A stretch of DNA of 37,094 bases, taken from the IMG/VR virus record IMGVR_UViG_3300046471_000237, positions 1 to 37,094 of that record. One strand, written 5' to 3'. The notes beneath the pieces were generated by a model, which was given only the letters and a program-made list of their open reading frames with translations, was not told the origin of the DNA and ran no database searches. Of this stretch, positions 13,151 to 28,993 are shown piece by piece. Origin of the DNA: a virus. How positions within the stretch are numbered: position 1 is the stretch's first letter; each line of letters begins with the position of its first letter. Made by a program: the position numbers and the translations under genes.

Positions 13151-13629
13151 TCGAGGCAATGGAAGTGCTGCTGAAGCACTGGGGTGAGCAACTTCGGCGC
13201 AATGGTGAGGTGGGTGGCATGGGTAGCCCAATGGCAACGATCATGGAGTGGGGCGGATGTGCACCGCGCGGCACTCCCGGATCTCGGATCATTATGGGGA
13301 CTGGTGCGGGGCCTGATGCAGTAGCTCAGGAAGTCGGTGCGGCTCTTTCAGAGATCGCCCGACAAGATGGGCGGGGAGAAAGGCTGCTGCAATTGGCGGT
13401 CTTGCGCTATGGCGACGACCCTGCACCGACTTGGATTTCGCAGATGCATGAGCTGGGGTATGTGTCCAAGGCGAAGCAAACCTACTACGACCTTGTGCAC
13501 AGTCTTCATGTGCGACTCTATGAGGTGTTGGCCGAGCGCAAAGATGCACGCAAATGGCTTACCGCTGGTCGGGGCGCCTTACCTCAAAGTCTCCTCAAAG
13601 TTGCGTCAAAGTTGCGTCGAGCTGGTTAA
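13147..13629 (+). CDS. Putative Q-like late regulator
   Basis: This 160-residue protein has an HWGEQLRRNGEVGGMGSP start and a C-terminal helix-turn-helix-like part (LGYVSKAKQTYYDLVHSLHVRLYEVL). The layout is that of small phage antitermination Q-like proteins: an early Trp-Gly motif, glycine/proline loops, then a sigma-like HTH. The position, after replication and before holin, cos and terminase, fits a late gene activator. The similarity is weak and the call tentative, but the gene itself is well supported by its ATGA start and codon use. Confidence 0.5.
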   Translation: MIEAMEVLLKHWGEQLRRNGEVGGMGSPMATIMEWGGCAPRGTPGSRIIMGTGAGPDAVAQEVGAALSEIARQDGRGERLLQLAVLRYGDDPAPTWISQMHELGYVSKAKQTYYDLVHSLHVRLYEVLAERKDARKWLTAGRGALPQSLLKVASKLRRAG

Positions 13630-13758
13630 CCGAAAATGCCCTCTTTTCGGTTCCGTACTCAGGGGGTAAAAAGTCACCAAGATATGAATTCTGCGCCTCG
13701 GCGCTTCCCCTGAGCACGTGCTGTGCACTCCGTCCTGGCAAGCGCCGCGACACTGAAA

Positions 13759-13787
13759 ACCCTGCCCTCCGGCGGGGTTTTCTTTTT
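13759..13787 (+). terminator. Rho-independent terminator before the holin
   Basis: ACCCTGCC (13759-13766) pairs with GGCGGGGT (13771-13778), with one G-T pair, and is followed by TTTTCTTTTT. It would end the early rightward transcript, or be the target of the Q-like protein acting on a late promoter in 13630-13758. I cannot fix a promoter in that interval. Confidence 0.75.
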
Positions 13788-13820
13788 GTGTTTGGCGCGC
13801 TCTTTCACTTGAGGCACAAC

Positions 13821-14165
13821 ATGACAAATGAGCAGCAAGCGCTGGCAGAGATGCCGATCTGGTTAGTGATCGTCCTGGCCTTGGTCGGCGGCGTATCCGG
13901 TGAAATGTGGCGAGCAGATAAAGATGGGGCGCGGGGCTGGGCATTGTTGCGACGCCTGGCGCTTCGGTCCGGTGCCTGTATTGTCTGCGGCGTGTCGGCG
14001 ATGATGCTGATGATCGGCGCGGGCATGACGATCTGGACGGCTGGCAGCTTGGGCTGCCTGACTGCGATGGCCGGCGCCGATGTTGCCATCGGTCTTTACG
14101 AGCGGTGGGCTGCCAAGCGACTGGGCGTTTCCGAAGTGCCACCCGCCAGTGGCGAGCAGGGGTGA
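13821..14165 (+). CDS. Phage/pyocin holin
   Basis: This 114-residue membrane protein has three hydrophobic stretches (about residues 12-27, 48-66 and 68-90) and a charged loop (WRADKDGARGW). It resembles the holins at the start of R-type pyocin clusters. It permeabilises the inner membrane to release the endolysin. GAGG precedes the ATG. It is separated from the endolysin and spanins by the whole structural block and sits just left of cos. Confidence 0.82.
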   Translation: MTNEQQALAEMPIWLVIVLALVGGVSGEMWRADKDGARGWALLRRLALRSGACIVCGVSAMMLMIGAGMTIWTAGSLGCLTAMAGADVAIGLYERWAAKRLGVSEVPPASGEQG

Positions 14166-14219
14166 TGCACCGGTTTGGGGCGCCGAAAACTGCCGGGGAC
14201 CCTGGGGTTATCCCGGGGG

Positions 14220-14241
14220 TACGGGGTCGGAAACCCGCGGG
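14220..14241. other. Candidate cosN site, lambda-like
   Basis: TACGGGG (14220-14226) and CGCGGG (14236-14241) stand at exactly the spacing found in lambda cosN, where TACG precedes the cut, a 12-base overhang starting GGG follows, then CGCGGG. By analogy the overhang would be GGGTCGGAAACC (14224-14235). Its position before the terminase small subunit also matches lambda. The lambda comparison is from memory. Confidence 0.65.
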
Positions 14242-14281
14242 AAGTTGTTAGCGGCAGGGTTGCCAGCTTACTGAAATTCAA

Positions 14282-14322
14282 TCCATTGAAATCGAAAGGT
14301 TCCATTGAAAAAGCCGTTGAAA
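14282..14322. repeat. cosB-like terminase-binding repeats
   Basis: TCCATTGAAA occurs at 14282-14291 and 14301-14310, with a variant CCGTTGAAA at 14314-14322, between cosN and the small-terminase start. Directly repeated sites here correspond in place to the R sites of lambda cosB that gpNu1 binds. Binding is inferred. Confidence 0.5.
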
Positions 14323-14332
14323 AGGAGGGCTT

Positions 14333-14935
14333 ATGACAGAACCAATGTACCTGTCAAAGAGCGCCTTCGCGGCTCGGATCGGCAGGGCGCCCAGCTACAT
14401 CACCTGGTTGAAAAACAACAACCGCTTGGTGCTGAGCGCTGACGGTAAACAGGTCGATGTCACGGCCAGCGAAGCGTTGATTCGCGACACCGCTGACCCG
14501 AGCAAGACCGCTGTCGCTGACCGCCACCACCAGGATCGGCTCCAGCGTGACGTTTACAGTCAGCTATCCAGCCAGATCGAGCCGACTTCAACGGCTGCGC
14601 CGCCGCTCGCGATCACCCCTGCGGGACAGCTACCCGATTTCCAGAAAGCCCGCGCATTGCGCGAGCACAACCTGGCACAGCTCGCCGAGATCGAGTTGCA
14701 CAAGGCCAAGGGCTCTCTAGTGGCCATGGCGGCGGTTCGGACCGGCGCCTACAACGCCGGTCGCATGCTGCGCGATCAACTGTTAGGTATGCCGCCGCAA
14801 CTGGCGCCCGAACTGGCGTCGATGACGGACCCTTGGGAAATCGAAAAGCACCTCACGGCGGCGATCCGCCGCTCGCTGGAAGACGCCGAACGCATGTCTT
14901 TAGCAGACCTTGAACACGCACTGACCACGAGTTAA
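14333..14935 (+). CDS. Terminase small subunit (Nu1-like)
   Basis: This 200-residue DNA-recognition subunit of the packaging motor has an N-terminal helix-turn-helix (SKSAFAARIGRAPSYITWLK, residues 8-27), a linker with low-complexity Pro/Ala, and a helical C-half that should contact the large subunit. A strong AAGGAGGG precedes the ATG. Candidate binding repeats lie directly upstream. It is followed five bases later by the gpA-type large subunit. Confidence 0.9.
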   Translation: MTEPMYLSKSAFAARIGRAPSYITWLKNNNRLVLSADGKQVDVTASEALIRDTADPSKTAVADRHHQDRLQRDVYSQLSSQIEPTSTAAPPLAITPAGQLPDFQKARALREHNLAQLAEIELHKAKGSLVAMAAVRTGAYNAGRMLRDQLLGMPPQLAPELASMTDPWEIEKHLTAAIRRSLEDAERMSLADLEHALTTS

Positions 14936-14939
14936 GCCC

Positions 14940-16955
14940 ATGCCCACGGAAATTCCTGACGGTGCAGAGGTGTACCGCGAGGCGTATTTCCGTGGGCTAC
15001 GGCCCGACCCGGATGTCTGGATCGATCAGTGGGCCGATGAGTACATGCGGATTCCGCGTGATACCGGCGCCGCTGAGCCGGGCCAGTACCGCACCTCGCG
15101 TACACCGTATGCTCGCGAGCCGATGCGTTGTTTGTCGCCGGCTCACCCCTGTAAGCGCGTGATCACCATGGTCGCCTCGCAGCTGATGAAAACCCAGATC
15201 GGGCTGAACTGGATCGGCGGCCTGATGCACATGGCGCCGTCGAATATCCTGGCGCTGCTGCCAAGCCTGGGTTTGGCCAAACGGGTGTCCTCGCGGATCG
15301 GCAAAACGATCAAAGCGACACCGGTGCTGCGCGAACGTGTAGCCGCCAACCGCTCGCGAGATTCGCGCAACACCATGGACACCAAGGAGTTCGAGGGCGG
15401 TACGTTGTATGTGACCACCGCCGGCTCGGCCGCCAATTTGTCGGAGCTGTCAGCGCGCTACGTGTACGGCGACGAGATCGACCGCTGGGAGGTGGACATC
15501 GGCGAGGAGGGTGACCCTATCGAGCTGGCAGAAACCCGGGGCAGTACCTTTGGCCGCAACGCCAAGTTCTACTTCTCCAGCTCGCCGACGATCAAAGGTG
15601 CCTCGCGAATCTCCGACCTGTTCGATGGCAGCGACCAGCGTCACTACTACGTGCCATGCCCGACGTGTGGGCACATGCAAATCCTTGAGTGGGAGCGGCT
15701 GCATTACTCGCCGGACTTCAGCGTGGTGCACTACCAGTGCGCCGGGCCTGAGTGTGATGTGCTGATCGAGGAGTACCACAAGGGCGAAATGCTCGCCAAC
15801 GGCGAGTGGCGTGCCCATGCCGAAGGCGACGGTGAGACCGTTGGCTTCCACCTCAACGCGTTGTATTCGCCGCTTGGTTGGATGGACTGGAAGTCGCTGG
15901 CCAAGCAATTCGAAAAGGCTAAGAAGGCCCAGGCCAAAGGCGACCTTGAACCAATGCAGGTGTTCTACAACACCCGCCTCGCGAAAGTCTGGGACGCAGC
16001 CCAAGAGCAAACCAAAGCCGATGTGCTGAGACAGCGGGCGCGGCTGGAAGGCTTCACCCTCGGCTCACTGCCGGCGGCGGTGCTGATGATTACCGGCTCC
16101 GTCGACGTCCAGGCCAACCGCCTGGAGTTCATGGCGATGGGGTGGGGCGCCGGCATGGAGCGCTGGGTCGTCGACTACCAAGTAGTCTCGGGTGATCCCG
16201 CAGACGAACGTACCTGGGCGGCCTTGGACGAATTGCTCAAGGCCAAATATCGCCATCCGTGCGGTGTCGGCCTCGGCATTCTCGCGGTGGCCGTCGACTC
16301 CGGTGGTCACCACACCGATGAGGTCTACCAGTTCTGCCGCGTACGCCGCTGGCGGAATGTGTTCGCCATCAAGGGGGCGAGCAAGCCCGGTAAGCCGGTC
16401 ATTGCTCAACGCCCGTCGATGGTCGACGTGACCTGGAAAGGTCAGACCGAACGCAACGGCGCCGAGCTGTGGTTCGTCGGTACCGACACGGCCAAGGACT
16501 GGATCTACAACCGCTACCCGTTCGAATCTGGACCGGGTGCACTGCACTTTGCCAATGACCTGCCGGACGATTTCTTCGACCAGTGCGTCGCGGAGCGCAA
16601 GGTTGCGCGCTACATACGCGGACACAAGCGCATTGAGTGGGTCAAGGGTAAGGCCGAGCGTAACGAAGCACTCGACTTGATGGTGTATTGCCTGGCCATG
16701 GCGCACTACCTGGGTCTCAACCGTTACAAGGAACACGACTGGGAGCGCGTGCGTCAGTCCCTGGCGCAGTCTGGTCTGTTCGACGACGCATTGGGCATCA
16801 AGCCTGTTCAAGGCGAACGTGTCACCGGCCCAGCAACACCGGTTGCTGCACTGCAATCGGCTCCACAACCTACTGCTCCGATCGTGCCATTGCGATCGGC
16901 AGCACCGCCACCTCAACGCCGCAGCTCCACCAGCGGTTATCTGAAGAGACGCTGA
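14940..16955 (+). CDS. Terminase large subunit, lambda gpA family
   Basis: This 671-residue packaging ATPase and cos nuclease has a Walker A-like VASQLMKT at residues 78-85 and a Walker B YVYGDEID at 174-181. A zinc-ribbon (CPTCG with a later CAGPEC) lies near 240-275, and the C-terminal nuclease region includes AVDSGGHHTDEVY. The length is close to lambda gpA (641). It acts with the small subunit at cos. The Pro-rich tail (RSAAPPPQRRS) likely contacts the portal. Confidence 0.96.
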   Translation: MPTEIPDGAEVYREAYFRGLRPDPDVWIDQWADEYMRIPRDTGAAEPGQYRTSRTPYAREPMRCLSPAHPCKRVITMVASQLMKTQIGLNWIGGLMHMAPSNILALLPSLGLAKRVSSRIGKTIKATPVLRERVAANRSRDSRNTMDTKEFEGGTLYVTTAGSAANLSELSARYVYGDEIDRWEVDIGEEGDPIELAETRGSTFGRNAKFYFSSSPTIKGASRISDLFDGSDQRHYYVPCPTCGHMQILEWERLHYSPDFSVVHYQCAGPECDVLIEEYHKGEMLANGEWRAHAEGDGETVGFHLNALYSPLGWMDWKSLAKQFEKAKKAQAKGDLEPMQVFYNTRLAKVWDAAQEQTKADVLRQRARLEGFTLGSLPAAVLMITGSVDVQANRLEFMAMGWGAGMERWVVDYQVVSGDPADERTWAALDELLKAKYRHPCGVGLGILAVAVDSGGHHTDEVYQFCRVRRWRNVFAIKGASKPGKPVIAQRPSMVDVTWKGQTERNGAELWFVGTDTAKDWIYNRYPFESGPGALHFANDLPDDFFDQCVAERKVARYIRGHKRIEWVKGKAERNEALDLMVYCLAMAHYLGLNRYKEHDWERVRQSLAQSGLFDDALGIKPVQGERVTGPATPVAALQSAPQPTAPIVPLRSAAPPPQRRSSTSGYLKRR

Positions 16956-27805: not shown

Positions 27806-27826
27806 CATTTCTGGAGATTGAGCCTT

Positions 27827-28993
27827 ATGAGTTTCTTTCACGGCGTCACCACCTCGTTGATCGACACCGGCGCACGGACAATTTCGCTGCCGTCGTCGTC
27901 GATCATCGGCCTGTGCGACACCTTCACCCCGGGCCTGCTCGGCGGCGGTACGGCCAAGGCTGGCGAGCTGGTGTTGCTCACGTCCGAGCGCGAAGCCATT
28001 GCCGCGTTCGGCCCTGACTCGGCGATCACCAAGGCCGCCCAGGCGATCTACGTGCGCGCCAAAGCGGTGATCGTCGCGATCGGCGTGCCCAAGCTGGAAG
28101 ACGCGGCGCTGCAAACGTCCGCCATTATTGGTGGGGTGCTGGCTGGTGGTCAGCGTACCGGCCTGCAAGCGCTGCTGGACGGCAAGAGCAAGCACAACGC
28201 CCAGCCCAAGCTGTTGATCGCCCCAGGGCATTCGTCGAACCAGGCCGTGGCCACTGCCATGGATGCCCTGGCCGCCAAGTTGCGCGCGATGGCCATCCTC
28301 GACGGCCCGAACACCACCGATGAAGCGGCCCTGGCCTACGCCCTGGAGTTCGGCAGCAAGCGTCTGTACATGGTCGATCCCGGCGTCAAGTACTGGGACT
28401 CGGTATTGAGCGCAACCATCGACGCGCCGGGTTCGGCCTGGGTGGCGGGCCTGTTTGCCTGGACCGACGCCACGTACGGCTACTGGGCATCGCCGTCGAA
28501 CAAAGAGTTTGTCGGCATCACCGGCACCACGCGCCCGATCGAGTACCTGGACGGCGACGAAACTTGCCGGGCCAACCTGCTGAATAACGCAAATATCGCG
28601 ACGATCATTCGTGACGGCGGTTATCGCCTGTGGGGTAACCGCACACTGTCCAGCGATCCGAAATGGGCGTTCGTAACCCGGGTACGGACCTGCGACATCC
28701 TGATGGATGCGATTCAGGCGGGGCACAAGTGGGCGGTCGACCGCTCGATCACCAAGACCTATGTGCAGGACGTGACGACTGGGCTTCAGGCGTTTATGGC
28801 GGACCAGAAGAACGCTGGCGCGGTGATCAACTTCGAAGTCTACGCCGACACGGAACGGAACACGGCCGCCCAAATCGAGCAGGGCAAAGTGTTCTGGCGT
28901 ATCCGCTTCACCGACGTGCCGCCGGCCGAAAACCCGAATTTCCTCATTGAAGTCACCAACGAATGGTTGACCGAAGTTCTTGAAACCGCCTAA
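27827..28993 (+). CDS. Contractile tail sheath protein gpFI
   Basis: This 388-residue sheath subunit of the P2/R-pyocin type has FFHGVTTSLIDTGARTISLPSSSIIGLCDT at the N-terminus, then the Ser/Ala-rich central domain, and ends with the handshake segment FRIRFTDVPPAENPNFLIEVTNEWL (listed here with minor variation). The start at 27827 follows TGGAGA; a TTG at 27818 is less likely. Confidence 0.96.
   Translation: MSFFHGVTTSLIDTGARTISLPSSSIIGLCDTFTPGLLGGGTAKAGELVLLTSEREAIAAFGPDSAITKAAQAIYVRAKAVIVAIGVPKLEDAALQTSAIIGGVLAGGQRTGLQALLDGKSKHNAQPKLLIAPGHSSNQAVATAMDALAAKLRAMAILDGPNTTDEAALAYALEFGSKRLYMVDPGVKYWDSVLSATIDAPGSAWVAGLFAWTDATYGYWASPSNKEFVGITGTTRPIEYLDGDETCRANLLNNANIATIIRDGGYRLWGNRTLSSDPKWAFVTRVRTCDILMDAIQAGHKWAVDRSITKTYVQDVTTGLQAFMADQKNAGAVINFEVYADTERNTAAQIEQGKVFWRIRFTDVPPAENPNFLIEVTNEWLTEVLETA

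Follow-up and report, generated by a model that had tools for sequence, protein, structure and literature searches.

Where the genome of a contractile-tailed phage begins and ends, and by which terminase plan those ends are made, is the question raised by a short intergenic stretch just upstream of terS in the virus record IMGVR_UViG_3300046471_000237, whose whole 37,094 bases constitute the window analysed here. An integrase, an S24 repressor, a lambda-family portal, a tail sheath, baseplate genes and a tape measure are encoded in the window, and the phage is therefore a temperate one with a contractile tail; sheath and baseplate genes bear out the tail type given in the original prediction. 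Its close relatives were found in Pseudomonas genomes. Taken together, the sequence, its conservation, the gene context, the matching of repeats with the TerS helix and the end junctions of relatives make it highly probable that positions 14195-14322 are the cos site of this temperate contractile-tailed Pseudomonas phage, packaging its DNA via a lambda-type terminase. The relevant features, with bp counted from the left end, are these:

13554-14165, + strand: open reading frame with a holin domain (PF16085 on residues 90-201), the last gene before cos
14195-14202, + strand: cosQ-like block GGGGACCC, 21 nt left of the nick, with GGGG.CCC conservation
14220-14241, + strand: cosN, TACG/GGGTCGGAAACC/CGCGGG, a motif match
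14224-14235, + strand: predicted 12-nt 5' cohesive end GGGTCGGAAACC, with adapter junctions at the homologous end in OR188719 and OR188718
14247-14251, + strand: conserved block GTTAG at bp 24-28, found in 241 of 256 distinct cos cores
14271-14276, + strand: CTGAAA at bp 48, an R3-like TerS-binding candidate at the position of R3 in lambda and N15
14286-14291, + strand: R-like repeat TTGAAA at bp 63
14292-14297, + strand: TCGAAA at bp 69, a degenerate R-like copy that is TTGAAA in many relatives
14305-14310, + strand: R-like repeat TTGAAA at bp 82
14317-14322, + strand: R-like repeat TTGAAA at bp 94
14333-14935, + strand: terS, small terminase subunit (phrog_57, E 9.5e-29), with a predicted recognition helix at residues 20-28 in the model
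14940-16955, + strand: terL, lambda gpA-type large terminase subunit (PF05876 and PF20454)
27818-28993, + strand: tail sheath of a contractile tail (phrog_23, E 2.8e-107)

The motif TACGGGG-N9-CGCGGG, proposed earlier as a cosN with the flanks and spacing of lambda, is confirmed at 14220-14241, with a single occurrence in the window and none in 100 dinucleotide-preserving shuffles of it. Among relatives, whose records were collected with TerL and TerS queries, the exact motif is present in 105 of 187 distinct 300-nt stretches upstream of terS (15 of 247 records were left out of this comparison as too short), and most departures from it in the rest affect the first T or bases of the half-sites. 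A looser form, ACGGG-N-C[CT]CGCG, is found in 228 of the 247 TerS-bearing records, and its length is 19 in every one of the 228 although 18-20 was permitted. The 19 records without it are eight P. aeruginosa phage loci, four contigs that begin 69-83 nt before terS, three records with 90% TerS (L119 shows a one-base change, CGCA) and four odd or broken contigs. Across the 256 distinct cores, the bases adjacent to the nicks are conserved at 0.95-1.00 and conservation drops to 0.77-0.86 at overhang bp 4-7; the half-sites are symmetric and their 12-nt spacing constant, while the middle is variable. GGGG.CCC recurs in 252 of these cores, and in 250 its distance from the nick, to the left, is 21 nt. 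Further, at least 118 loci in a scan of the sequence collection carry the 20-mer GGGTCGGAAACCCGCGGGAA, and a TerS-like ORF lies 71-252 nt downstream in 100 of the 101 listed loci with at least 400 nt of downstream sequence, the sole exception being L269, which has no TerS and whose repeats break into unrelated sequence. Inspection of the listed metagenome contigs, made without a count, revealed no pile-up of contig ends at the nick.

In the window, terS and a gpA-type terL adjoin the site, with 110 bp from cosN to terS, and among relatives this distance ranges from about 90 to about 568 nt, some having other DNA in between, so that the cos site is evidently a unit of its own. Extra DNA or genes of about 250-550 nt lie between cosN and terS in L033, L212, L202 and L218. 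Given that the repeat block is directly upstream of terS and that hexamer arrays can serve as operators, the repeats might instead be an operator or leader for terS transcription, the likeness to cosN being incidental. This is most improbable in light of a nick geometry held constant at 12 nt, of L033 and L212, in which a gene separates cos from terS (about 546-549 nt) and part of the repeat array nevertheless adjoins cosN, of adapter junctions that mark DNA ends at this site in relatives (see below), and of the lack of any sigma-70-like promoter in 13500-14700. No Rfam family was detected in 13600-15000, and no tRNA was found anywhere in the window.

If the cos reading is correct, TerS would bind the hexamer array, anchored through a presumed contact at the R3-like copy at bp 48, and would place TerL on cosN, whereupon TerL would nick the two strands 12 bp apart, the top strand after 14223 and the bottom strand opposite 14235/14236, to leave the 5' end GGGTCGGAAACC. 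Packaging would then move to the right, taking in terS, terL and the head and tail genes, and stop at the next cos. The 12-base overhang originally predicted is supported by conservation, terminase context and the adapter junctions of two relatives, and terS does follow the repeats, as had been proposed, with the gpA-type terL after it.

The window cos very probably works like lambda cos. Lambda (NC_001416), 21, phi80 and N15 share with it a 12-nt 5' overhang (predicted for the window), TACG and CGCGGG at the nicks, an R3 or R3-like candidate at about bp 48-65, a TerS gene next in order and a gpA-type TerL. The differences lie around this core: cosQ is GGGGACCC at 21 nt before the nick in the window but GGGTCCT at 23 nt in lambda, and the GGGTCCT heptamer is nowhere in the window at the tested spacing; the R copies are all direct and 6-15 bp apart, whereas lambda follows an R3-I1-R2-R1 plan with R2 inverted; and terS starts at bp 110, compared with 191 in lambda and 89 in N15 (according to passages of PMC9026076). 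The best IHF candidate in the window has one mismatch but is equalled in 30 of 500 shuffles, and loci of the other repeat types are without an IHF site. In light of the cosQ and the direct, closely set R copies, and with no IHF site that stands out, this is a variant of the lambda plan that falls outside the enteric lambda group in its strict sense; the label "lambda-like" fits the nick flanks, their spacing and the predicted overhang, but not cosQ. Overall identity with the lambda cos was discarded as evidence, as its ungapped placement from -26 to +30 scored best (28/56) elsewhere on the + strand, missing the site; only the nick-flanking bases and spacing count. Nor is the pairing of cos with a contractile tail new: SfV and SfI, contractile-tailed Shigella phages, likewise package via cos, although with a 10-nt end, TGCCCGCCCC, rather than a lambda-type 12-nt site (all as given in portions of PMC3636060).

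The account of the repeats also needs correction. Three TTGAAA copies are indeed present, and a cosB role for them is supported by the match with the TerS helix described below, but the array is not complete with three: CTGAAA at 14271-14276 and TCGAAA at 14292-14297 had been overlooked, giving four to five R-like copies. The CTGAAA at bp 48 is the probable main TerS-binding candidate; R3 lies at bp 50-65 in lambda and bp 48-60 in N15 (values from passages of PMC9026076). The GTGAAC, GTTAAC and GTTGAC types, too, mostly carry a forward hexamer at bp 48-49, whereas loci of the TTGAAA type usually have CTGAAA at bp 48 (the majority of rows reading TACTGAAATT...), with TTGAAA there in 7 rows. Repeat type agrees with the TerS recognition-helix motif in 268 of 268 rows (287 minus 19 second-cos rows), counting two GTGAAC/GTTAAC ties and three rows in which the script left the helix pattern unread, and with repeat classes that were picked after inspecting the data. 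The helix PSYITWL pairs with TTGAAA, KSYVSKL with GTGAAC, KPYVSKL and RAYVSKL with GTTAAC, and RQYVGKL and KQ[YH]ISKL with GTTGAC. Phages whose TerL is 90-100% identical to that of the window carry TTGAAA in 61 cases, GTGAAC in 23 and GTTGAC in one; consequently, the repeat tracks the TerS N-terminus and not TerL.

The motif falls within the predicted helix 20-28 of TerS (model pLDDT 76, pTM 0.35). Residues 5-54, assessed for an N-terminal winged HTH of the lambda gpNu1 type, align to gpNu1 1j9i (Z 5.6, rmsd 1.7, 49 aligned) and the N-terminal domain to the packaging-motor chains 7lw0, 7lwr and 7lxs (Z 7.3-7.5), moderate scores that prove little alone; the best Foldseek E for the TerS model is 0.45, TerS has no Pfam match, and the PDB holds no sequence relatives of TerS (E up to 1) or of TerL. 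Because the helix and repeat segments are about 100 nt apart and would recombine together, their covariation could in principle reflect linkage only, with no DNA recognition behind it. Linkage of neighbouring segments is a partial alternative, but as a complete account it is unlikely: two to six repeat copies change together, a copy is retained at bp 48-49 with altered letters, the varying TerS residues fall in the predicted recognition helix, and in lambda and 21 that same helix is the element that sets packaging specificity (as stated in part of PMC4669245). The packaging-specificity code in lambda, 21 and N15 rests on few cases. Four natural pairs of TerS helix and R site, with one copy near-fixed, would represent a testable DNA-recognition code for that specificity.

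Evidence of physical ends comes from P. aeruginosa phages. Lodos, Turba, U5, LPPA36 and LPPA56 resemble the window phage in TerS (46-48% identical), TerL (66-68%), the position of the site and a repeat at bp 48, and differ in their end, GGTGATTCGAAC, their CAAG/CCCG half-sites and their GTTAAC repeats; eight P. aeruginosa relatives in all are without the TACG/CGCGGG half-sites. Since only 36 of 75 positions of the P. aeruginosa site are identical to the window, with 32 at the best wrong offset, homology rests on anchors, namely the nick-to-repeat distance and GCTAG/GTTAG. The first GTTAAC is at bp 48 from the mapped nick in four of four P. aeruginosa loci, the place taken by CTGAAA relative to the predicted nick of the window, and this nick-to-repeat anchor is stronger than overall identity. 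On the other strand, around the cos of L241, GGTGATTCGAAC resembles what we take to be the consensus of a tRNA T-arm.

In the records of two of these phages, LPPA36 (OR188719) and LPPA56 (OR188718), the homologous site is interrupted by a sequencing adapter. The LPPA36 record has an adapter pair with its 10-nt barcode between ...CAAGGGTGATTCGAAC and GGTGATTCGAACCCCG..., flanked by a 12-nt duplication (two copies of GGTGATTCGAAC), which is what filled-in 5' overhangs would leave. In LPPA56 the adapter starts at the same base, followed by other letters, and an uncut copy of the site is at record position 112. The junction is exactly at the predicted nick, judged by the homologous base. Of 50,697 phage records, 5 have adapter-like stretches (OR188718, OR188719, OR188720, PQ374146 and PQ358089); their letters are presumably MGI/DNBSEQ. 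The first 32 nt of the adapter are also printed in published papers. Similarly, the end of the Presto record begins with the first 8 bases of the 12-nt overhang and the other end of Haddon breaks 8 bases into it, so that a break or adapter falls within the 12 nt in four of the eight P. aeruginosa records; the other four, Lodos, Turba, U5 and Meadow, have the site at an internal position. The records of Presto (PQ533662) and Meadow (PQ533659) are about 79 kb, twice as long as those of related phages, and assembly may have fused two genomes in each. A headful mechanism, in which TerS binds here and imprecise cleavage yields permuted ends, draws on the fact that pac phages have TerS proteins of similar fold, yet it has very little probability against a gpA-type TerL, symmetric half-sites, and the duplicated 12-nt end of LPPA36 with the same junction in LPPA56. 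The cos reading is thus preferred, and genome ends can be predicted from this site for a large group of Pseudomonas prophages.

The cos site itself is fairly ordinary in kind, and added weight comes from the ends of relatives, the recognition pairs and a set of loci in which a second cosQ-cosN, TTTACGGGTCCT...ACACG/GGTTATCGAACT/CGCGG (cos2), lies upstream of the main cos. A scan for cos2 returned 74 contigs, with a cosQ of GGGTCCT 23 nt before the nick in 69 of the 74 sites and TerL in just one contig (L447, a phage). Among 53 loci whose sequence extends 1 kb or more downstream, 52 have a main-type cosN further along the same strand, at a gap of 141-923 nt. Each of the 45 loci whose upstream sequence reaches 8 kb or more has homologues of holin, primase, CII-like, KilAC-like and excisionase genes; 16 also have an integrase similar to the one in L446, and none has any of the seven phage packaging or structural genes tested, which are also absent from 18 of 19 loci with at least 3.5 kb downstream. 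L446, for example, spans 10.4 kb and carries integrase, excisionase, S24 repressor, CII, VapE-type primase, holin, cos2, cos1 and TerS. Integrase, excisionase and primase without structural genes are the gene content of PICI-like elements, and small satellite elements appear, from their sequences, to have borrowed close copies of the window cos beside a different cos. At about 10 kb these double-cos elements are satellite-like; their mobility, excision and use of two helpers are putative.

Decayed prophages would be the other source of such elements, in keeping with a primase about 63% identical to those of related phages and with a shared phage holin, cos and TerS. That origin is doubtful, given that the 45 loci with 8 kb or more of upstream sequence all share one gene order and have no structural genes, and that right flanks differ between copies. 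A search for att repeats of the satellite-like elements yielded nothing beyond 12-nt matches; a tRNA-Leu lies near the left side of the element in L371 and L418. An element and a main-type phage co-occur in at least 3 of 16 sources with ten-digit numbers not starting with 33, which we take to be isolate genomes, when contigs are paired by name (L422/L027, L451/L045 and L453/L285, with TerL checked in those phages).

The E. coli PICI EcCICFT073 is also a satellite with two lambda-like cos sites, both cosN being alike and the same as its helper's and no TerS homologue being present, whereas the double-cos elements combine two different cos types with a TerS (EcCICFT073 as described in parts of PMC6092414). 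In the portions of the literature retrieved by our search, no satellite with two different cos types was described. The Pseudomonas helper-satellite pair AH14a/AH14b was considered as a parallel and set aside, as its authors excluded cohesive ends (per a passage of PMC4936722).

As to where cos2 originated, its region has no match in the phage collection, and a looser scan returned 90 contigs. Of 17 examined that lack the exact 25-mer, seven show, after cos2, a lambda-type TerL of another kind that shares about 32% identity with that of the window; L480, a main-type phage, carries both cos sites, and the matches in L473 and L487 look like chance. L471, of the family with that other TerL, encodes a Pfam Nu1 TerS, gpA, portal, D and E. 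The different TerL after cos2 and the gene set of L471 suggest that cos2 is probably the native cos of another lambda-type phage family. Can one satellite, then, be packaged by two unrelated lambda-type terminases? It is tentatively proposed, at somewhat less than even chances, that these approximately 10-kb Pseudomonas satellites carry the tandem cos of two phage families (TerL about 32% identical) plus the TerS of one and are packaged by two unrelated helpers, and that phages and satellites share a circulating set of four TerS-helix/R-site specificities, which serve as exchangeable keys.

Two smaller observations concern genes of the window. A strong terminator-like hairpin at 13755-13782 falls inside the initial part of the holin ORF as annotated, a sign that the true start is probably near 13822. 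At the left prophage edge, 308-2217 encodes an AAA ATPase and a DUF4276 protein with weak PADLOC matches to AbiLi, AriA and HEC-01, a possible defence pair.
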